A stretch of DNA of 64,000 nucleotides from Desulfobulbus oligotrophicus (GTDB lineage Bacteria > Desulfobacterota > Desulfobulbia > Desulfobulbales > Desulfobulbaceae). Position 1 is the first letter of the stretch. Each line of letters starts with the position of its first letter. Shown one piece after another: positions 2,028-12,422 of the stretch. The position numbers were made by a program, and so were the translations under genes. The DNA is taken from the NCBI RefSeq assembly GCF_016446285.1, contig NZ_CP054140.1, positions 1,965,501-2,029,500 on the forward strand, given 5' to 3'. The notes beneath the pieces are model-generated. The model searched no databases. It saw only the letters and a list, made by a program, of their open reading frames with translations, and had not been told where the DNA came from.

Positions 2028-2630
2028 ATGAGTCAACCAGTACAGCAGAGTCAGACCGAAATCATTGTCACGGGTTTCGGCGGCCAGGGCATTATTTTAG
2101 CCGGCCGAATTCTTGGTATGGCGGCCTCGCTCGGCGACAAGAAAGAATCCACTCTGGTTCAGGCCTATGGGCCGGAGTCCCGCGGCGGTGCCTGTAATGC
2201 CCAGGTCATCATTTCCAACACACCGATTCACTATCCCTATGTCAACACACCCGACATCCTGATTGCCATGTCCCAGGCCGGTTACGACAAGTTTGTCACT
2301 GCCCTGGCCGACGACTCGGTGTTGTTGATTGACGAGGATCTGGTTCGTCTGCAACAGGCACCTTGCGACCATTTCGCCATTCCGGCCACACGCATGGCTG
2401 AAAACCTCGGCAACAAGATGATGGCCAATATCATTATGCTCGGTTTCTGTACGGCCGTCACCGGGGCGGTGTCGAGCCGGGCGGCGCAGGTGACCATTGC
2501 CGACTCCGTTCCCAGGGGAACATCGGAACGCAACATTGAGGCCTTTGGCAAGGGATTTGATTACGGGCTTTCCACCCTTAAGGGTCGACGAAAGGTGGCC
2601 GCCGGTCAGGCTGGAGCGCTGGCATCATGA
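2028..2630 (+). CDS. korC: 2-oxoglutarate:ferredoxin oxidoreductase, gamma subunit
   Basis: Gamma subunit of the KorABC complex, 200 residues, the catalytic domain typical of pyruvate/ketoisovalerate oxidoreductases. The N-terminus shows TGFGGQGIILAGRILG and then SYGPESRGG-like residues (AYGPESRGGACNAQV), both diagnostic. The ATG at 2028 starts MSQPVQQ; the longer upstream frame runs into korB. The stop overlaps the next start as ATGA (2627-2630), implying translational coupling to the large flavoprotein fusion downstream. Confidence 0.93.
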   Translation: MSQPVQQSQTEIIVTGFGGQGIILAGRILGMAASLGDKKESTLVQAYGPESRGGACNAQVIISNTPIHYPYVNTPDILIAMSQAGYDKFVTALADDSVLLIDEDLVRLQQAPCDHFAIPATRMAENLGNKMMANIIMLGFCTAVTGAVSSRAAQVTIADSVPRGTSERNIEAFGKGFDYGLSTLKGRRKVAAGQAGALAS

Positions 2631-5600
2631 AGCGGGAAAAAGAACGACTGTACCGGGTCATTGTTGCCGGTGCCACGCCGGAAGGTATTGCAGCCACCAA
2701 CAAGCTGGGGGAGTTGGGCATCCCGGTGACCCTGGTTGATGCTGATCCTGATCTTGATGTGAAGCTTGCCGCTGACAGGTACCGTCTTCCTTCGGGTCTG
2801 CCTTTCAACTTTGCCCATCGTCCCGGTCTTATCCGGATTATGCGCAACAGTGCCATTCGAACGCTGCTGCCCGCCAGGATTGAGTCGATTAAACACACTT
2901 CCCAGGGGTTCAGCGTCCGCATTGATCAGGAACAGACCTTTGTCGATGCGGATCGTTGTGTTGCCTGCGGTAAGTGTGTTGCAGTCTGTCCGGTGGAGCA
3001 TCCGGAAAAGGGGCGGGCACTGCGCTTTCACAGTCGCACCGGTCTGCCCGGACGACCGTATATCGACAAGCGGAGACAACCACTGTGTCAGGAGAGCTGT
3101 CCTTTGGGGGTGAACGCTCAGGGGTACATCGCCCTGGCAGGCAGAGGTCGGTTTGATGAGGCATTGGCCTTGATACGACGCGATAATATTCTGCCCGGCA
3201 TCTGTGGCCGGGTCTGCACGCATCCCTGTGAAGAGGCCTGCCGGCGCGGTGGTGTTGACGACCCGGTTTCCATTCGCGCCATCAAACGTTTTCTGGCTGA
3301 TTACGAGGGAGAAAACACTGCCCGCCTTGAGGCCGCCGGGGCGGCAATGGCAGCCGCCTGTGCACCGGCTCGAAAAGAGAAGGTTGCTATCATCGGCTCC
3401 GGCCCGGCAGGCATTGCCGCAGCTGCGGATTTAGCCCGTCAAGGTTACGGTGTCACAGTTTTTGAGAAGGAAGCCGAGGTCGGTGGTCTGCTTCGCTACG
3501 GTATCGGTGCACATCGATTGCCCCGTACGATTCTGGATCGGGAAGTCAAACTTATCGAACAGATGGGGGTCACCTTTCTCACGAACAGGAAGGTTGATAT
3601 CACAGCTGATATTGAACAGCTTCATAAAGAATACGATGCTGTGCTTCTGGGTACCGGTACCTGGTATGACCGCAGAATGGGGATAGAAGGGGAAAACCTG
3701 ACCGGCGTTGAGGGCTGCCTCGCCTTTCTTGCCCGCCGACAGTGGGATAATCTGACCGGCATGTCAGGGAAGGTTGCTGTGATCGGCGATGGTAACTCCG
3801 CCTTTGATCTGGCCCGCACTCTGACACGCATGGGAGCTGCAGTGAGCATCATCAGCTGGTTCGGCATGGACCACATCCCGGCCGACCCGGATGAGGTTCG
3901 GGAAGCTGTGGAAGAGGGGGTAACCATTGTCGATGCTGTCCAGGTGGTTGCTTTCCAGGGGCGGGACGGTGTGTTTACCCATCTGGAATGCATGCCGACC
4001 AGACCCGGTAAGCCCGACGAACACGGCAGAGCCTGGCCCGTGATTGCTGAAGGGCAGCAATCCTTCCAACTGCCCTTTGATCGGGCCTTTGTTGCCATAG
4101 GACAGGTCGGTGGCTACACCCAGGCAAGTTTTGGTGGAGCCATCAGTATCAGCAAACATGGTTTTATTGTGACTGATGAGGAACTGCGCGCTTCAAAAAC
4201 CGGATTCTACGCAGCTGGAGACACGGTGTCGGGCCCGTCTTCAGTGGTGCAGGCCATGGCTTCAGGTCGTCAGGCTGCGCGCGCCATCCACTGTGATCTC
4301 ACCGGAGTACAGGAGAAAGCATCAGGCGGCCGACCGGCAGGCAAAGACTTTCGTGCTCTTCCCGAAAATATCTGTCAGCAGATGCGCATCACCATGCCGG
4401 AGCGCCCCACCGCTGAACGTAAAAATAGTTTTCAGGAGGTCTCCCTTGGCTACAGCAGCCGGGAAATGGCTGTGGAGGCCGGCCGTTGTCTGCAGTGTGG
4501 AGTCTGTTCCGAGTGCCTGGAATGTGTGACTGCCTGTGGACCGCTGGCCGCCATTGATCACTATCAGGAGAAAGCGGAGATTGTTGAACAGTGCGGGGTG
4601 GTCATTGTGGCGGATGCGGATATTGTTCCCAATGTGAAGGGGAATGACATTATCCGTGCTCATGGCCCTAAAACAGCACGATCAGATGTGAACGATATGA
4701 TCGTGCGCGGCTTTGATGCGGCCGGCCAGGCAATGCTGCTGCTGGGAGGAGCTGCCAAAAAGACAAAAGGTCACGGTTTATCGGTTTCCATTCCGGATGC
4801 CGGTCTGTCGTCGGAGATCCGTATCGGAGTGTTTGCCTGCCGGTGTAACGATTCACTGGGGTGGCTTGATGCTATGGATGACTATCTTGAACAACTGCCT
4901 GCCATCACCCCTCTGGTTGTCCACACTGCAACCCTGACCTCAGCCTGTGTCCAGGATGAGACGGCGACGATTGTACGGACGGTTCGGGAAAAAGGTATCA
5001 CCCGGATTGTTCTGGCCTCCTGTGTCTGCTGCCCGTTGAATTTTGTGTGCAGCGCCTGTACCGATCAGCGCAGCCGGCTGAAAGACAACCTGTTCCATGG
5101 AACCGGTATCAGCCGCTCCATGGTGGAAACCTGTAATCTGCGCGGTGAGATCCTCCGCCTTGTCACCTCTGATCCGGACCTTGCTCTGGAGCGATTTAAG
5201 GGGTTGCTTGGCCGGTCGATTAAACGGACACTGCATCTTAAGCCGTTGCCCACGGTAACCCGTAACTACAATTTTACCGCTGCCGTGATCGGCAACTCCC
5301 AGGCAACGCTGACCAGTGCCATGACTCTGGCCGATTCCGACCATGAGGTGTTTCGTATCGGTACGGCTGAACAGCCGTTGCAGGATATGGTTGAACACCC
5401 CAATATCCATAATTTTTCCGACTGGTCTGTACAGAGTATCAAGGGGACAATCGGTGATTTTCAGATACTTATTGAGGCCGACGGCCAACAGCAGATCCTG
5501 CGTGCCGGTACCGTCATTTTAGGGGCAAAGGCACGCAAACGCATCGCCTATACCCATCAGGAAGGTCTGCCCACCACAACTGTAGAGCCGGTGGTTCAGG

Positions 5601-6025
5601 AGTATGGCACAACGAACATTCCCTTTGCCTACCCGTGTGCAACCTCTGTTCCCGGCTTATTTCTGGCTGAACCGCCGGATATCAATGTCTCGAAACGAAA
5701 GAAGGGGAATGCGGCGGCGATGATGGTGGCTGCCGCCATGCCCCGTGGACCGCGCCAGTCCAAAGGGCTGACTGCCGCTGTTGATGAAAAACTCTGCCGG
5801 GGGTGCGGTCGTTGTGCCCGGGCCTGTCTCTATCATGCGGTGACGCTGCACCCGAATGAAATCGGCGGCTGGTGTGCCCATGTTGATGAGGCGCTGTGCA
5901 AGGGGTGCGGCAACTGTATTTCGGTTTGTCCGACAAGTGCGGCGGACAGCCCCTATCGCAACCGCGCTTTTCTCGAACAGGCTCTTGAAGAGGTGTTGGC
6001 ACGGGAGACAGCCCATGGCAAATAA
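2627..6025 (+). CDS. GltD/NfnB-like and HdrA-like iron-sulfur flavoprotein fusion
   Basis: Very large (1132-residue) electron-transfer fusion. In order I see: an N-terminal Rossmann-like stretch; a 4Fe-4S motif with Cys 111, 114, 117 and 121; a GltD-type helical Fe-S domain (CQESCPLGVNAQGY, CGRVCTHPCEEACRRG); an FAD motif near residue 255 (IIGSGPAGIAAAADLARQ); an NAD(P)H motif near 382 (VAVIGDGNSAFDLARTL) and the closing YAAGDTVSGPSSVVQAM; a Cys-rich segment near 620 (RCLQCGVCSECLECV); an HdrA-N-like part (GVFACRCNDS); and a C-terminal two-cluster ferredoxin near 1055-1100. The GltD half is typical of NAD(P)H:ferredoxin oxidoreductases. Overlaps korC by 4 bases and the next gene by 11. Inference: it passes electrons between Kor-reduced ferredoxin, NAD(P)H and the Hdr proteins. 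The exact reaction cannot be read from sequence. Confidence 0.85.
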   Translation: MKREKERLYRVIVAGATPEGIAATNKLGELGIPVTLVDADPDLDVKLAADRYRLPSGLPFNFAHRPGLIRIMRNSAIRTLLPARIESIKHTSQGFSVRIDQEQTFVDADRCVACGKCVAVCPVEHPEKGRALRFHSRTGLPGRPYIDKRRQPLCQESCPLGVNAQGYIALAGRGRFDEALALIRRDNILPGICGRVCTHPCEEACRRGGVDDPVSIRAIKRFLADYEGENTARLEAAGAAMAAACAPARKEKVAIIGSGPAGIAAAADLARQGYGVTVFEKEAEVGGLLRYGIGAHRLPRTILDREVKLIEQMGVTFLTNRKVDITADIEQLHKEYDAVLLGTGTWYDRRMGIEGENLTGVEGCLAFLARRQWDNLTGMSGKVAVIGDGNSAFDLARTLTRMGAAVSIISWFGMDHIPADPDEVREAVEEGVTIVDAVQVVAFQGRDGVFTHLECMPTRPGKPDEHGRAWPVIAEGQQSFQLPFDRAFVAIGQVGGYTQASFGGAISISKHGFIVTDEELRASKTGFYAAGDTVSGPSSVVQAMASGRQAARAIHCDLTGVQEKASGGRPAGKDFRALPENICQQMRITMPERPTAERKNSFQEVSLGYSSREMAVEAGRCLQCGVCSECLECVTACGPLAAIDHYQEKAEIVEQCGVVIVADADIVPNVKGNDIIRAHGPKTARSDVNDMIVRGFDAAGQAMLLLGGAAKKTKGHGLSVSIPDAGLSSEIRIGVFACRCNDSLGWLDAMDDYLEQLPAITPLVVHTATLTSACVQDETATIVRTVREKGITRIVLASCVCCPLNFVCSACTDQRSRLKDNLFHGTGISRSMVETCNLRGEILRLVTSDPDLALERFKGLLGRSIKRTLHLKPLPTVTRNYNFTAAVIGNSQATLTSAMTLADSDHEVFRIGTAEQPLQDMVEHPNIHNFSDWSVQSIKGTIGDFQILIEADGQQQILRAGTVILGAKARKRIAYTHQEGLPTTTVEPVVQEYGTTNIPFAYPCATSVPGLFLAEPPDINVSKRKKGNAAAMMVAAAMPRGPRQSKGLTAAVDEKLCRGCGRCARACLYHAVTLHPNEIGGWCAHVDEALCKGCGNCISVCPTSAADSPYRNRAFLEQALEEVLARETAHGK

Positions 6026-7625
6026 AACAGACGATAAAACTCTGAACATCCTGCTGTTTCTCTGCAACTGGGGGGCGCACGCAGCCTTTCTCACCCTGCA
6101 GGACCAGCTGCGTCCCATTCCCCACGAGATCCGGATGGTGCGTGTCCCCTGTGCCGGTCGTATTGATCGTGCCATGCTGCTCAAGGCATTTGCACAGGGA
6201 GCCGACGGTGTTGCCCTGGTCGGCTGTGAACCGGGTACCTGCCGCTATGGATCCGGTTCTGCAAACTCTCTGCAGAATACGGATGATGTGCAGCGCATCC
6301 TGGATATCATGGGACTTGGCCGGGAACGCCTGTGTTTTGGTGCTTTTCTGCCGGAAGAATCGGAAGAGCTGCTGAGCTTTCTGCAAAATTTTGCAGATGA
6401 GATCAACGTCCTGGGGCCGGCCGGTATTGAGGCTGTACCGGTGATTTCTGCTCTCAACGCTGATGATCTTCATCAGGAGTTACGACAGCTGGTTGCTGCC
6501 TACGATATTCACGCCTGTCAGGATTGTGGTAAATGCACATCAGCATGTCCCCTGGCTCTGATCGGTAAACCTTTTTCCCCGCGTGCCATTGCCTCAGCAG
6601 TGATTACCGGAGGTATCCACAGTCCCGGTGTTCAGGAAAACGTCTGGTCCTGTCTGACCTGCGGTCTCTGCTATGACCGTTGTCCTTCAGCGGTGAATTT
6701 TCCGGCCTTTATCAAAGAGCTTCGCCACCTCTACCGTCACACTGCACTGCCCGGTCAGGAGGTGCACGGAGGGTTTTTTCATTCTCTGATGCGTTCCATG
6801 TCGTCTGCAGCCATCACCCCCAGACGGTGGGGCGGCCTGCCTGATGAGATTCGTACAGACCCGGAGAGTCCGATCCTGTTTTTTGGTGGCTGTGCTCCCT
6901 ATTACGACATATTTTTTGGGAAGCACAGCAGACCACAGACCAATAAGATCCTCATCGACAGCCTGCGTCTTCTGAACTTTTTTGATGTTGCTCCCCGCCT
7001 GCTGACCGATGAACGATGCTGCGGACATGATCTGCTCTGGTCGGGAGACAAGAAGAACTTTGAGCGGTTGGCGCGAATCAATGTTGAGCGGTTGAACGGA
7101 CTCGGCATAGAAACCGTGATCACCACCTGCCCGGAATGTTACATGACGCTGCATACCACCTATGCTGACGAGGGGCTGGAGCTGAAGTTCAAGGTGGTAC
7201 ATCTGTATGATTTTCTTGAGGAGCAGCTGGATAAAGGAGCTGTTGATTTTGAGCCGTTTGATCAGGTGATCACCTTTCAGGACTCCTGTCGGCTCGGTCG
7301 ACTGGAGGGTAAGGTCGATCTGCCGCGCAAGTTGCTTAAGCGCCTGCAGCCGGCACGGTTTGTTGAGATGAAAGAGGCGGCGGGTGCATCGATCTGCTGT
7401 GGTAACTGTGCCTGGACAGGGTGCGACGGGTATAGCAAGGCTCTGCAGGTCAGGCGGCTGGAACAGGCCCATGCCACCGGCAGTGATCTCCTGGTAACCT
7501 CTTGTCCCAAATGCCAGCTGCATCTGGCCTGTGCAATGGAAGACCCGTTCCGTCGCGAGCAGCTGGAGATAGAACTCATGGATCTTACCAGTATCATCGC
7601 CCAGACGATCCGCTGGAAGGGCTGA
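6015..7625 (+). CDS. MvhD-HdrC-HdrB fusion (heterodisulfide reductase-like)
   Basis: A 536-residue fusion. Residues about 10-135 resemble MvhD (F420-non-reducing hydrogenase delta subunit, 2Fe-2S) with Cys 17, 46, 71 and 76; the usual second Cys of CNWC is Gly here (CNWG). Residues 160-250 are HdrC-like with two 4Fe-4S motifs (Cys 168/171/174/178 and 213/216/219/223). Residues 285-510 are HdrB-like with two CCG domains (CCGHD at 335, CCGNC at 461) that in HdrB hold the non-cubane disulfide-reducing clusters. The ATG at 6015 overlaps the upstream gene by 11 bases. It is probably the terminal reductase arm of the cluster; the substrate disulfide or thiol is unknown. Confidence 0.88.
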   Translation: MANKTDDKTLNILLFLCNWGAHAAFLTLQDQLRPIPHEIRMVRVPCAGRIDRAMLLKAFAQGADGVALVGCEPGTCRYGSGSANSLQNTDDVQRILDIMGLGRERLCFGAFLPEESEELLSFLQNFADEINVLGPAGIEAVPVISALNADDLHQELRQLVAAYDIHACQDCGKCTSACPLALIGKPFSPRAIASAVITGGIHSPGVQENVWSCLTCGLCYDRCPSAVNFPAFIKELRHLYRHTALPGQEVHGGFFHSLMRSMSSAAITPRRWGGLPDEIRTDPESPILFFGGCAPYYDIFFGKHSRPQTNKILIDSLRLLNFFDVAPRLLTDERCCGHDLLWSGDKKNFERLARINVERLNGLGIETVITTCPECYMTLHTTYADEGLELKFKVVHLYDFLEEQLDKGAVDFEPFDQVITFQDSCRLGRLEGKVDLPRKLLKRLQPARFVEMKEAAGASICCGNCAWTGCDGYSKALQVRRLEQAHATGSDLLVTSCPKCQLHLACAMEDPFRREQLEIELMDLTSIIAQTIRWKG

Positions 7626-7752
7626 GCGCAGCATCTTCGTGCGCAGGCTGGAGAAGAGACCCTGCCCGTGAACAGTGCTGATTGTCCTTGCATATTGTTT
7701 TTTTTACTGACACGAACTTACCCCTGTTTGTACAGGGAATCGGAGAATACCC

Positions 7753-10188
7753 ATGTCAAAAACGTCTACTGCCAATCCTGCTGTTAAAGCCGCCGGTCCT
7801 GCTGAACCGCGCATCGGAGTTTACGTCTGCCACTGCGGGCTGAATATTGCCCAGACCGTGGATTGTCCCAAGGTCGCTCAAGAGGCAGCCGACTCCAGCG
7901 GTGTCGTGGTGTCAAAGGATATTGTGTATGCCTGTTCAGAACCGGGGCAGCAGGAGATCAAGCAGGACATCATTGACAACGGGCTTGACCGGGTGGTGAT
8001 CGCCTCCTGTTCACCGCGGTTGCATGAGACGACCTTTAAGAAGATGGCCGAGGCCGCTGGCATCAACCCGTACATGGTCGATATGGCGAACCTGCGCGAG
8101 CAGTGCAGCTGGGTGCATATGAAAGACCGGGAAAATGCCACTGTCAAGGCAAAGACCCTGGTTGACATGGCGATCTCACGGGTCCGTCAACTTGAACCGC
8201 TCTATGAGGATACCTTGCCGCTTATTCAGAAAAGTCTGGTGATCGGTGGCGGGATTGCCGGTATTCAGGCGGCACTTGACCTGGCGGACAGCGGCTATGA
8301 TGTTGTTCTGGTGGAGAAGAATCCATCCATCGGCGGCGTGATGGCGCAGATCGATAAAACTTTTCCAACCATGGACTGTTCGATTTGAATCTTAGGTCCT
8401 AAGATGACGGATGTCGGTCGACATCCACGAATACAGCTGTTGACGTTAAGTGAAGTTGTTGATGTGAAGGGATATGTTGGCAACTTCAAAGTGAAAATCC
8501 TTAAGAAAGCCCGTTATGTTGATGAGACAAGCTGCACGGCATGCGGGGACTGTGCCCAGGTGTGTCCGGTGGTGCGTCCTGACGAGTTCAACGTGGGACT
8601 CGGTTCCCGCAAGGCAATTTACAGTCCCTTTCCCCAGGCGGTGCCATCGAGTTATCTGATCAATGCCAAAGAGTGTCTTGGTCCCAATCCGTCGGTTTGC
8701 TCCAAATGTGTGGAGGTCTGCGCTAAAGGGTGCATTAACTTTCACATGTCTGACGAGGAGATTATCGCAGAGGTGGGCACGATCATCGTTGCCACCGGTC
8801 TCCAACCTTATGATCCGGCAGAGATGGACGAGTACGGGTATACCCGTTTTGACAACGTGCTGACCAGTCTTGAGTTTGAACGGTTGGTGAATGCGGGCGG
8901 CCCCACCAAGGGTGAGCTTATCCGCCCTTCAGACCGCAGACTCCCCGGATCCGTAGGCTTTATTCAGTGTGTCGGCTCAAGATCGGCCACCAAAGGCGGC
9001 CACTACTGCTCCAATATCTGCTGTATGAATACCGTCAAGTCGACCCTCATCCTGAAGGAACACTATCCTGACATGGAGGTGAAGGTCTTCTATATCGACA
9101 TCCGTGCTTTTGGTAAAGGCTTTGAAGACCTGTATACCCGGAGTCGGCGGTTGGGCACCCAGTATATTCGAGGTCTGCCCGGCTCAGTTGCAGAGACGGA
9201 TGATGGCAGGTTGCGGGTGGCGGTGGAAAATGGAGCAACCGGCATCCTGGAGTTTCATGAGCTCGATATGCTGGTCCTGGCGCAGGGCATGAAACCGGCG
9301 CCTTCGACTCAACGCCTGCAGGAGATCATGGGGCTGCAGCTGACCTCGGACGGATTTTATCTTGAGGCACACCCCAAGTTGCAACCAGTGGATGCAGCCA
9401 CCCGGGGTATCTTCTATGCGGGCTGTGCCGAAGGCCCTAAAGATATCAAGGAGAGTGTCACTCAGGCATCTGCCGCGGCCATGCGTGCTGTTCGCCTGAT
9501 GCACAGGGGGGAGATCACCACGGAACCGATCACCTCCTTCATCATCACCGAAAAATGTAAGGCCTGTGGCAAGTGTGCCGAGGTTTGCCCGTACAATGCC
9601 ATTACGGTGGATGTCAAGGCCAAGAAGCCGGCCGTGGTCAATGCGGCGGCCTGTGCCGGTTGCGGTACCTGCGCGGCTGAGTGTCGATTTGATGCCATCA
9701 GCATGAATCATTTCACCGATGCGCAGATCTTAGGTCAGGTCAACAGCATGCTTGACACGGCACCGGAGAGCAAGATCCTTGCCTTTGCCTGCAACTGGTG
9801 TTCGTATGCCGGTGCCGACTATGCCGGTGTGTCAAGACTGCAGTATCCTGCCAACGTCCATCTTATCCGGGTGATGTGCTCAGGTCGGGTGGATGAGAAG
9901 TTTATCTGGGAAGGGTTTCGCCGGGGGGCACCGATCGTGCTGGTAAGCGGCTGTCATATCGGGGACTGTCACTATATTGATGCCAATCACTGGACCGCAA
10001 AACGGGTTGAGCGTATCCGTAAGAAGATGGAGAAGATCGGTGTGCGACCGGAACGGCTCCAGCTGGAATGGATCAGCGCTGCAGAAGGGATTCGTTTTGC
10101 AGAAACAATGCGACGGATGGAGGAGCTGCGCCGGAGTGTCACGGCAGAGGAGATTGCCGAGACACAGAATATTCTGAGTAAACTGTAG
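7753..10188 (+). CDS. hdrA: Selenocysteine-containing HdrA-MvhD fusion (TGA read through)
   Basis: One 811-residue protein if the in-frame TGA at 8386-8388 is read as selenocysteine at residue 212. The part before it has the HdrA N-terminal domain (YVCHCGLNIAQTVDC) and the FAD motif near residue 162 (VIGGGIAGIQAALDLADSGY), ending TFPTMDCSI. The part after it resumes ILGPKMTDVGRHP in the same frame, exactly as HdrA continues after the Cys of its D-C-S/A-x-C motif. It follows with 4Fe-4S Cys 261/264/267/271, a two-cluster ferredoxin from Cys 602, and a full MvhD domain from about 675 (FACNWCSYAGAD, GCHIGDCHY). A hairpin with a GGUC loop sits 27 bases after the TGA. Cys and Sec forms of HdrA are known in methanogens. 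Automatic callers would split it at 8388/8404. HdrA is the bifurcating flavin subunit, so this protein probably pairs with the HdrCB fusion upstream. Confidence 0.88.
8386..8426 (+). promoter_or_regulatory. UGA selenocysteine codon plus bacterial SECIS-type hairpin
   Basis: The TGA (8386-8388) is followed by a perfect 7-bp stem 8409-8415 / 8420-8426 closing a GGTC loop at 8416-8419. A GGU-bearing apical loop about 16-37 bases downstream of UGA is the hallmark of bacterial SECIS elements bound by SelB; here the first loop G is 27 bases past the codon. A second perfect 7-bp palindrome with a 3-base loop lies directly after the TGA (8389-8405). Confidence 0.82.
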
Positions 10189-10243
10189 TTCGGATCCGTT
10201 TCCACGCCGACTATTTTACTTCTTTACTGCTGAGCAGGTGTTC

Positions 10244-10285
10244 ACAACCGGGTGCGATACTCATGATGCCCTTGTACCCGGTTGT
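10244..10285. repeat. 10-bp perfect inverted repeat between convergent genes
   Basis: ACAACCGGGT at 10244-10253 is mirrored by ACCCGGTTGT at 10276-10285 with a 22-base loop, just after hdrA and before the convergent DUF2156 gene. It may be a terminator or RNA-stability hairpin, but no T-run follows on either strand. The rest of the 267-base gap shows no gene. Confidence 0.5.
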
Positions 10286-10455
10286 CATGCTGCTGCACCA
10301 GATGTTGGAACCGGACAAAGGCCGCTGTGACCGGAGGACGATAAGGTGGGGTAAAAGGCAGGCTCAGAGAGCTGCTGAAGAAAAATACCCTGTGCACGCC
10401 TGCGTCCAGGATCTTTGATCAGGGCAAGGTGGAAGAACGTTCCGATCCTATCGTT

Positions 10456-11382
10456 TTAGGAGGCAATCGAGGTGACAGCCATATACTTCTCGACAAACCC
10501 GGCGGGCAGATAGCTGAGTTTTGCCTGACGCAGCCCCGGTTCGCCCAGATCCTGTTCCCGGTTGATACAGCTATAGTCTTCAGGAAGGATCGAGGCAAAG
10601 GACTGATTAATGAACTGATACAGTCCCTTATAACCGGGTACCGCCTTTTCAAAGTGGATGGCAAACGTTGTTCCACCGGCCAACTCTTCCCCCAACACAT
10701 AGGCAACCGGCTGCGATTCAACGTAGTAGATACCACCGCACAGCTGGAGTGCTTCCATGGTCATGAGAGCTTCACGGGCGGCCTCGTAGTCGCCTTGATA
10801 GCCGGACCCTTCCCTCCATTGATCCAGGACTGACAGGGCGTCGGCACGATACTCTTCACGCAGGGGGCGGGCGCTGTAGTTGTGCGTGCTGACAAAGGCT
10901 TTGACAAGATTTCGTTTCTTATGATAGTTGCGGCCGGTTAAGGAGGCCAGATCCTGGCGGCGATACAGGTAATCAAAGTTGTCCCGGTCTGCGGTGACCC
11001 GATATCCAAGCTCTGCCAGCGCCGTTGACTGTGCAGTGGTTATACACTTCATCATCCGCTGTTCGGCAAACAACCTAGCCAGATGCTCGTGATCCGGCAG
11101 CCCGAAAGGCAGTATGAAAAACGGACCGCCGCTATCTTTGCCAAGCACAGCGAGACGCCCGTCCTGCAAGGTGGAAAAACGGTAACTGTGGCGGTGGCGA
11201 AAGAGAAAGAGGTTGGCAAAGGTCAACTCTGAAAGCCCATCGGTCAACTCCTGGAAAAGAGGGTGGAGTTGGCTGCGGTGCCCCAGTTCAGGCTCCACGG
11301 AGTGCGGATAAGAGGGGATCGGTGCTGTGGCTGGCGGTAGGTCGGGCTGTTGGAAACTCGGATGGTAGTGTCTGTCAGTCAT
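10456..11382 (-). CDS. DUF2156 (LPG-synthase C-terminal-like) protein
   Basis: A 308-residue soluble protein resembling the DUF2156 family, a double GNAT-like fold related to the catalytic half of phosphatidylglycerol lysyltransferase. Supporting segments are LTGRNYHKKRNLVKAF, the central SVLDQWREGSGYQGDYEAAREAL and the C-terminal GLYQFINQSFASILPEDY followed by NREQDLGEPGLRQAK. No membrane domain is present, so it is probably not a lipid flippase. I chose the ATG at 11382 (MTDRHYHPSF), because the longer frame adds 34 unconserved-looking residues. Substrate unknown. It is convergent with hdrA. Confidence 0.75.
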   Translation of the reverse strand: MTDRHYHPSFQQPDLPPATAPIPSYPHSVEPELGHRSQLHPLFQELTDGLSELTFANLFLFRHRHSYRFSTLQDGRLAVLGKDSGGPFFILPFGLPDHEHLARLFAEQRMMKCITTAQSTALAELGYRVTADRDNFDYLYRRQDLASLTGRNYHKKRNLVKAFVSTHNYSARPLREEYRADALSVLDQWREGSGYQGDYEAAREALMTMEALQLCGGIYYVESQPVAYVLGEELAGGTTFAIHFEKAVPGYKGLYQFINQSFASILPEDYSCINREQDLGEPGLRQAKLSYLPAGFVEKYMAVTSIAS

Positions 11383-11648
11383 GGTTTGGGGATATCGGTT
11401 GCGGGCAGTAAGGACCCTGTGAGAAGCCGGCTGTAGTATCAGGGAAAGGGTAACATACGGCAGACAGCCTTGCAAGGACGCCAATGGCTGGTGATGGCTG
11501 ACAGCAATCTGACAGCGGTCGGGAGGCGGACCTTGGACGGCATACAGTCGAGTCGACCGATTTTCGTGTTGAACGGGTAATCGGTCGTGATGTGGACAGG
11601 TTGCGGTTCTTTGTGAATCCTGGGTTTAAGGGAACGAAACAGACACGG

Positions 11649-11987
11649 TCAGTTTCCAAGTACCTTGGTGATGATCATCTCTTTGGTATAGATATCAGGT
11701 TCCGGGGTTTTCCAGCTGATGAACTGTCTGCTTACCCGCTGAAAGGAGCCGTGATCTTTTTTACAGAGATCACAGATGGATTCGGCATTGTCCCGATACA
11801 TGATGATCTCACTGGCCGGGTCTCCGGACTGATTGACGGCCGCCATTTTTCGACAGCCGCAGTCGAGCCGGATCACAGCCACACCGACAGCATCCGGACT
11901 GCCTTCGAAGATGCCTTCGATCATGGCCTGTTCTCCTTTTTCCGGAGAGGGGGAAGGGGAGCTCTGTTTGTGTTTTTTTTGTGCCAT
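11649..11987 (-). CDS. Small Cys-rich conserved-looking hypothetical protein
   Basis: A 112-residue protein I do not recognise. It starts at the ATG at 11987, preceded by GAGGTG at a suitable distance; the first 30 residues are Lys/Ser/Pro rich and probably disordered. The body has C-G-C (LDCGCRKMAAV) and CDLCKKDHG, a possible metal site, then SWKTPEPDIYTKEMIITKV. Codon use and the ribosome binding site support a real gene. It is divergent from the ferredoxin gene downstream. Confidence 0.6.
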   Translation of the reverse strand: MAQKKHKQSSPSPSPEKGEQAMIEGIFEGSPDAVGVAVIRLDCGCRKMAAVNQSGDPASEIIMYRDNAESICDLCKKDHGSFQRVSRQFISWKTPEPDIYTKEMIITKVLGN

Positions 11988-12125
11988 AGGTACGCACCTC
12001 GGAAGAATAAGTTGCAATGTACGCTCTATGTACTGTTGTTTGCGCGGATAGCAAAGAAAAAAGACGGTCTGATTTTTTCTGGCCGGGAAGAACGGGAAGG
12101 AAGGCCGGCATCACTGTCTTTTCAC

Positions 12126-12208
12126 TTGACAAATTAGGAGTAGTTTTTTAAGAAAAAAAGATTTTGCACTGCAATACTGAGAGTTTTCTTAAGACTGAGA
12201 CAGTATTG
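12126..12208 (+). promoter_or_regulatory. Putative sigma-70 promoter and leader hairpin of the ferredoxin gene
   Basis: TTGACA at 12126-12131 is a perfect -35 box; 17 bases later TAAGAA (12149-12154) is only a weak -10. The leader then holds an 8-bp inverted repeat, CAATACTG at 12172-12179 and CAGTATTG at 12201-12208, ending about 28 bases before the ATG. The promoter is tentative; the repeat is plain in the sequence. Confidence 0.4.
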
Positions 12209-12236
12209 GTTCATTATTTATTGTGGAGGTTTTAGC

Positions 12237-12422
12237 ATGTGGGAAATCATTGTTGATAAAGATAAATGTACCGGTGATGAAGAGTGCGTAAATGCCTGTC
12301 CTGCACAGATTTTTGAAATGCAGGGTGGTAAGGCCGAGCCGGTGGATGCAGAAGAGTGCCTGGGCTGTGAGACCTGTGTTGAAGTCTGCCCGGAAGATGC
12401 CATCACTGTCACTGAAATTTAA
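12237..12422 (+). CDS. Ferredoxin with Asp14 in the first cluster motif
   Basis: A 61-residue two-cluster ferredoxin, a soluble one-electron carrier. The second motif is complete (Cys 41, 44, 47 and 51). The first reads C11-x2-D14-x2-C17-x3-C21-P, with Asp where the second Cys normally sits, as in Pyrococcus furiosus ferredoxin and Desulfovibrio africanus ferredoxin III. In those proteins the cluster is 4Fe-4S with an Asp ligand or converts to 3Fe-4S. A strong GGAGG lies 9-10 bases before the ATG and a terminator follows, so it is a single-gene, probably well-expressed unit. It is a plausible partner of the Kor/Hdr enzymes nearby. Confidence 0.93.
   Translation: MWEIIVDKDKCTGDEECVNACPAQIFEMQGGKAEPVDAEECLGCETCVEVCPEDAITVTEI

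Follow-up and report, generated by a model that had tools for sequence, protein, structure and literature searches.

The locus of Desulfobulbus oligotrophicus analysed here raises the question whether two adjacent open reading frames on the forward strand (7753-8388 and 8404-10188) are the pieces of a broken gene or parts of a single one; all positions refer to the window, the whole stretch of 64,000 nucleotides that was studied. The frames lie in the same phase, as the preliminary description had pointed out, and translation of the window shows that the TGA at 8386-8388 is the sole interruption of the frame 7753-10188, which encodes 811 residues if this single codon is read. The codon would then specify residue 212, in the context F-P-T-M-D-C-S-I-U-I-L-G-P-K-M, a C-x-x-U motif. 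A domain search of the read-through protein identified Fer4 and FAD domains and a C-terminal MvhD domain (FlpD, PF02662) at residues 675-791, and the protein scored 1189.9 bits with the model NF040770 (hetero_SS_HdrA2), above the cut-off of 1100. These two results uphold the HdrA-MvhD fusion that had been proposed, and the gene (7753-10188, forward strand) is called hdrA2 below. The archaeal HdrA equivalogs NF041778 and NF041891 remained under their cut-offs (672.2 bits for a cut-off of 1400, and 649.3 bits for one of 1300), and a scan of 7500-10450 for promoters and terminators gave one of each, fewer than the shuffled means. Very probably, the apparently broken gene is one gene with a stop codon read as selenocysteine (Sec), as it is in the majority of its close relatives.

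A single scan across named genomes returned 427 confirmed stretches, the best 80 of which were kept, a selection biased to close kin. Among these best 80 of 427 relatives, the codon at the site is TGA in 71 and a cysteine codon in nine, which makes, with the window included, 72 TGA, six TGT and three TGC; no TAA or TAG stands there in any of the 80. The cysteine codons agree with the earlier suggestion that the missing residue is the last cysteine of a D-C-S-x-C motif, and the flanking residues, also said to be conserved, are so on both sides in the 71 TGA relatives; two TGA rows (L036 and L080) have D-C-A-I-U instead of D-C-S-I-U. Since TGA recurs in 71 of the 80 relatives and is otherwise replaced by a cysteine codon, there is no sign of a sequencing error that turned TGT or TGC into TGA, or of homologues with a real stop and a new start, two of the outcomes that the preliminary description had named as speaking against its reading.

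By name, the TGA rows belong mostly to Desulfobacterota or 'Deltaproteobacteria', the others being L101 (Aminicenantes), L087 (Proteobacteria), and L036 and L108 (uncultured bacterium). The nine Cys rows comprise five Bacteroidota, one Dehalococcoidia, two Thermoplasmata and one Bathyarchaeota, and a quick tree of the proteins (83 rows, site masked) requires at least three changes between Sec and Cys. SelB was surveyed in 40 genomes, from 41 loci taken from the best 80 relatives; it was above the cut-off in 30 of the 31 genomes with a TGA gene and in two of the nine with a Cys gene. The model is bacterial and could overlook SelB in the three archaeal genomes with a Cys gene. A MAG named Aminicenantes carries a TGA-containing hdrA2 with a full SECIS element (L101:5563) in a genome without SelB above the cut-off, for which transfer, mis-binning or an incomplete MAG might be the explanation. 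In the family of the window's organism, 10 of 59 genomes (its own included) have a match of at least 81% identity with one TGA inside. A close HdrA2 match is absent from three of the nine searched genomes of the genus (G047, G066 and G073), though these are 99% complete, and the distribution of HdrA2 within the genus is patchy.

Downstream of the TGA, a hairpin with a 7 bp stem and a GGUC loop at 8416-8419 (GGATGTC-GGTC-GACATCC, 8409-8426, forward strand) is predicted to be a bacterial SECIS element. The preliminary description had noted a perfect hairpin in the right place, 27 bases downstream; this figure is correct as the distance from the TGA to the loop, whereas the stem begins 20 bases past the TGA. 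The published bSECIS model (PMC13188914) allows a stem of 4-16 bp, a loop of 3-9 nt whose first two positions contain G, a distance of 16-37 nt from UGA to loop, and a minimum free energy at or below -7.5 kcal/mol, and the hairpin falls within all of these limits (a GGUC loop of 4 nt, a 7 bp stem, a distance of 27 nt, and -9.4 kcal/mol for the hairpin alone). Among the relatives, the hairpin alone reaches -7.5 kcal/mol in 70 of 72 TGA genes and in none of the nine Cys genes. As a single sequence it gave a weakly significant fold test (z -0.98, -1.74 and -2.22 for three lengths, with 29, 10 and 5 of 200 shuffles folding as well as the real sequence), so that the evidence for a SECIS element is strong because of the relatives rather than because of this fold. 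A search of the genome with Rfam SECIS_1 had no match and is uninformative, as none of the 14 control genomes had one either. Another hairpin (8389-8405, GUC loop), which adjoins the TGA, was rejected as a SECIS element: its loop lies 7 nt past the TGA, outside the range of 16-37, and all seven of its pairs form in just 12 of the 72 TGA genes. Those 12 genes are mostly of Desulfobulbus type.

Of the 72 TGA genes, 67 form all seven stem pairs of the hairpin 8409-8426 and five form six, the outermost pair being the one that fails; none of the nine Cys genes forms six or seven. When synonymous codons were redrawn from each gene itself, the TGA genes had a mean of 4.31 pairs, against 6.93 of 7 observed, and all seven pairs arose in 1.5% of the redraws, while the Cys genes (n=9) showed 3.78 pairs observed and 3.74 redrawn. 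The fold energy of the whole region is a weaker signal, with a mean z of -1.41 in the TGA genes (below -1.64 in 30 of 72) and 0.27 in the Cys genes. Counted from the TGA, codons 8 (Asp GAT), 10 (Gly GGT) and 12 (His CAT) are invariant in all 72 TGA genes, codon 9 (Val or Ala) always has C as its third base, and the Arg codon in the stem is CGA or CGG only; codons 1-5 and those from 13 onwards are variable. Pair 29-36, which joins the Val/Ala codon to the Arg codon, is T-A in 48 genes, C-G in 20, T-G in four and C-A in none (Fisher p 3e-14, computed on rows, which are not independent), and a change between Val and Ala is accompanied by a synonymous Arg change that keeps the pair. A tree test of this pair found eight independent supported pairs, with a mean of 7.5 concordant and none opposed (median p 0.008, range 0.008-0.031). 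In the covariation test, made on 38 of the 72 rows hand-picked for spread, the score was reached by none of 500 shuffles and by no slide of 1-3 columns. Of the seven stem pairs, only one changes on both sides, and five are invariant; in that one pair the hairpin shows compensatory change.

Sec and Cys forms of HdrA2 in one genome, with the same peptide and different codons, provide a natural control. One genome of the window's genus (G097) and one of its family (G071) each contain a TGA-bearing close match and a second HdrA2 without a stop. The site reads TGC and TGT in these second copies, which are 66% identical and still encode D-C-S-I-C-I-L-G-P-K-M-T-D-V-G-R-H-P; their codons disrupt the loop GGUC and both inner pairs, and five and four outer pairs stay. 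The TGA copy of G097 (L116) has both the TGA and the hairpin, minus its outermost pair. Since the Cys paralogues keep the peptide and lose the loop and inner pairs, the codon choice in the TGA genes serves the RNA and not the peptide. No kor genes were found in the 14-15.5 kb around each of the two Cys paralogues. The Cys-type hdrA2 of G097 (9832-12270, above the NF040770 cut-off) follows gcvT-like, gcvH, gcvPA, gcvPB, lipB and lipA genes (L114:2251-12270); compared with NCBIfam models, gcvT is below its cut-offs and the others are above one. This HdrA2 may take electrons from dihydrolipoyl-GcvH.

The genome to which the window belongs (3.10 Mb, one contig, completeness 99.99) contains the machinery for selenocysteine, including SelB and the tRNA, whose absence had been named as fatal to the proposal. 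Profile searches found SelA (619.2 bits), SelB (347.7 bits, above the cut-off), SelD (361.5 bits) and a tRNA-Sec (71.5 bits, above the gathering score) with the anticodon TCA according to ARAGORN. Only matches above the cut-offs were used for SelB, SelD and the tRNA, because weaker ones occur in all 14 control genomes too. The same genome encodes a formate dehydrogenase-N alpha subunit (L119:1357-3780; TIGR01553, 1224.8 bits, cut-off 814.2) with an in-frame TGA at residue 196, in R-V-U-H-G-P, which we take to be the usual Sec site of this subunit. SelD itself carries one in-frame TGA, at U-A-A-K, which fits the UxxK motif given for Sec-SelD (PMC13188914). Elsewhere in the genome (G000:C1:2119631-2123055), a second HdrA-type protein is encoded by a frame of 1044 residues followed by a separate MvhD-like frame, the matches being free of internal stops.

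A true stop at the TGA would mean a decayed gene or a pair of separate proteins, with the ATG at 8404, which does open a frame of 594 residues, as a new start. The break would sit inside the HdrA part, though, and the conservation of both flanks in 71 TGA relatives, the replacement of TGA by Cys in nine of 80 and the Sec machinery of the genome make a true stop extremely unlikely. An error of sequencing or assembly would need one base, as TGA is that far from either Cys codon; yet it would have to recur in 71 named records, from isolates and MAGs, together with a hairpin that is missing in nine of nine Cys genes, and its probability is vanishingly small. Very little weight can likewise be given to decoding of the TGA as a different amino acid or to chance read-through, as Cys is the only replacement in the nine rows without TGA, the hairpin conforms to the bSECIS model, and a tRNA-Sec with the anticodon TCA exists. 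Almost certainly, then, SelB and tRNA-Sec would act on the SECIS element at 8409-8426 and decode the TGA at 8386-8388 as selenocysteine, yielding one HdrA2-type HdrA-MvhD fusion with the C-x-x-U motif.

The genes upstream of hdrA2, all in the same direction, point to the company in which this protein might work. They are predicted to encode the alpha subunit of a 2-oxoacid:acceptor oxidoreductase (korA, 10-1143; NF006412 above the cut-off, with a possible ATG 3 bases before the window), its TPP subunit (korB, 1148-1996; PF02775) and gamma subunit (korC, 2028-2630; PF01558), an HdrL-like protein with HdrA-type domains and an inserted GltD-like NAD(P)H domain (2627-6025; domain and profile searches, named after PMC2702500), and a fusion of MvhD with HdrC/HdrB (6015-7625; FlpD, and CCG in two stretches). 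The starts of korB, korC and the MvhD-HdrCB gene were assigned by reading, as was the name of a korD-like ferredoxin of 91 residues, encoded just outside the window (G000:C1:1965198-1965473). Among the 41 TGA loci whose upstream DNA spans 8.5 kb or more, 40 have korABC ahead of hdrA2 (in L073, the locus ends within korA), 39 have HdrL covered to more than 90% of its length, 41 have MvhD/HdrCB and 38 have the complete operon. In the six Cys loci with as much upstream DNA the corresponding numbers are four, one, three and one, and the two without upstream kor (L112 and L113) have a korA-like gene downstream.

As to the place of the selenocysteine in the protein, residue 212 aligns with a cysteine, residue 197 of the solved HdrA 5odc, in a gap-free block (650 residues aligned). 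Cysteine is thus found, where the preliminary description had proposed looking for it, both in nine of the 80 relatives and in the solved protein. Cys197 of HdrA is described as the only ligand of the N-terminal Fe-S cluster that is contributed by the other HdrA copy, in the ferredoxin branch (PMC9012536). Because it is aligned with this residue, Sec212 should be a cross-subunit ligand of the N-terminal [4Fe-4S] cluster of HdrA in the ferredoxin branch. In the literature searched, no description of Sec212 as the counterpart of Cys197 was found, although one may have been published. HdrL keeps the cysteines of the N-terminal type at 738, 740, 774 and 799 in 50 of 50 HdrL rows, and that at 836 in 44, while the string D-C-x-x-C or P-K-M is absent from 49 (L041 has a possible match); the corresponding region has one to three scattered cysteines in 18 of the 50. 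HdrA copies without Cys197 have been argued to pair with copies that have it (PMC9012536), and our guess is that HdrA2, which has an N-terminal domain of its own to serve, is a candidate partner of HdrL.

Sequence comparison shows the recoding, the SECIS element, the domains and the conserved neighbourhood; we infer the ligand role of Sec212, from the alignment with a solved HdrA, and the physiological reaction as a whole with its direction. The probable partners of HdrA2 are the products of the genes just upstream (KorDABC, HdrL with its NAD(P)H domain, and the MvhD-HdrCB fusion), and the most likely activity of such a KorDABC-HdrL-HdrCB-HdrA2 unit would be flavin-based electron bifurcation or confurcation. 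In this unit Kor would contribute ferredoxin, HdrL would make the connection to NAD(P)H and HdrCB that to thiol/disulfide, and the unit would so link the oxidation or the reductive synthesis of 2-oxoacids, in either direction, to NAD(P)H and thiol/disulfide. A fuller proposal, which we consider rather improbable as a whole, is that Sec212 acts as a selenolate ligand across the dimer interface, possibly for HdrL too, and tunes the ferredoxin branch of this complex, with NAD(P)H and thiol/disulfide driving or draining 2-oxoglutarate chemistry.

The alternative, compatible with the decoding of TGA as Sec, is that HdrA2 forms an ordinary HdrA2-HdrCB unit and that Kor is co-regulated with it and forms no complex. 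HdrA2B2C2 of Methanosarcina is indeed reported to be active when reconstituted alone (PMC5296606), the two Cys paralogues described above lack kor nearby, one of them lying behind glycine cleavage genes, and Kor need not bind Hdr, since a KorD ferredoxin is encoded. On the other side stand the 40 of 41 TGA loci with korABC upstream and the Cys loci, four of six with kor upstream and the other two with a korA-like gene downstream. An arrangement without a Kor complex is quite plausible, if a little short of an even chance, and a physical link of HdrA2 to Kor has about even or slightly better prospects.

Parts of this picture are known, and the novelty that the preliminary description had seen in a bacterial Sec-HdrA fused to MvhD was overstated. 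Sec-HdrA of Deltaproteobacteria was reported in 2006 by Zhang et al. (PMC1794560), with 16 bacterial proteins counted, seven in Syntrophobacter fumaroxidans and one in Desulfotalea psychrophila. The protein of the window shares with these the Sec in HdrA and the class of organisms, but their genes lie beside frhD, frhG, frhA and glpC, and the available text of that paper mentions neither an MvhD fusion nor kor. HdrA-MvhD fusions in Bacteria were reported in 2017 by Yan et al. (PMC5296606). The fusion is likewise shared with HdrA2 of the Methanosarcina acetivorans HdrA2B2C2, the window protein being above the NF040770 cut-off; the archaeal enzyme was shown with F420 and CoM-S-S-CoB (PMC5296606), and the words 'selenocysteine' and 'oxoglutarate' do not occur in that paper. 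The review PMC13188914 gives both C-x-x-U and the model NF040770 for HdrA.

Two further known systems are close to this one. HdrA1 of Desulfococcus multivorans (dmul_C02770/80, taken from the numbering to be one gene) is a Sec-HdrA with a SECIS element annotated as two loci (PMC5109826), and thus a precedent for the annotation as two broken genes that had been foreseen; its likeness to the window gene is one of description, and the available text has no match for Kor or oxoglutarate. Desulfobacterium autotrophicum HRM2 is reported to have two Sec HdrA and two Sec HdrL, the latter being an HdrA/glutamate synthase fusion beside mvhD (PMC2702500). Its HdrA1-HdrA3 are encoded with separate mvhD genes, unlike the fused protein of the window, and the HdrL frame of the window, in contrast to the Sec HdrL of HRM2, has no internal TGA. 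In the literature searched, no description was found of kor beside hdrA, which does not imply its absence from print, or of the regular position of the gene downstream of korDABC and of an HdrL with an NAD(P)H domain; in the available text of PMC6085437, the string 'korA' matches Korarchaeota only.

The hdrA2 of the window belongs to a known group of Sec-containing electron-transfer proteins and is encoded behind 2-oxoacid enzymes. What appeared as two fragments would be one full-length electron-transfer protein, with the same codon in 71 of the best 80 of 427 relatives. If Sec212 is a cluster ligand, it becomes possible to ask why anaerobes place selenium at a non-catalytic Fe-S site. The regular presence of kor genes nearby suggests that sulfate reducers metabolise 2-oxoacids by a bifurcating route.
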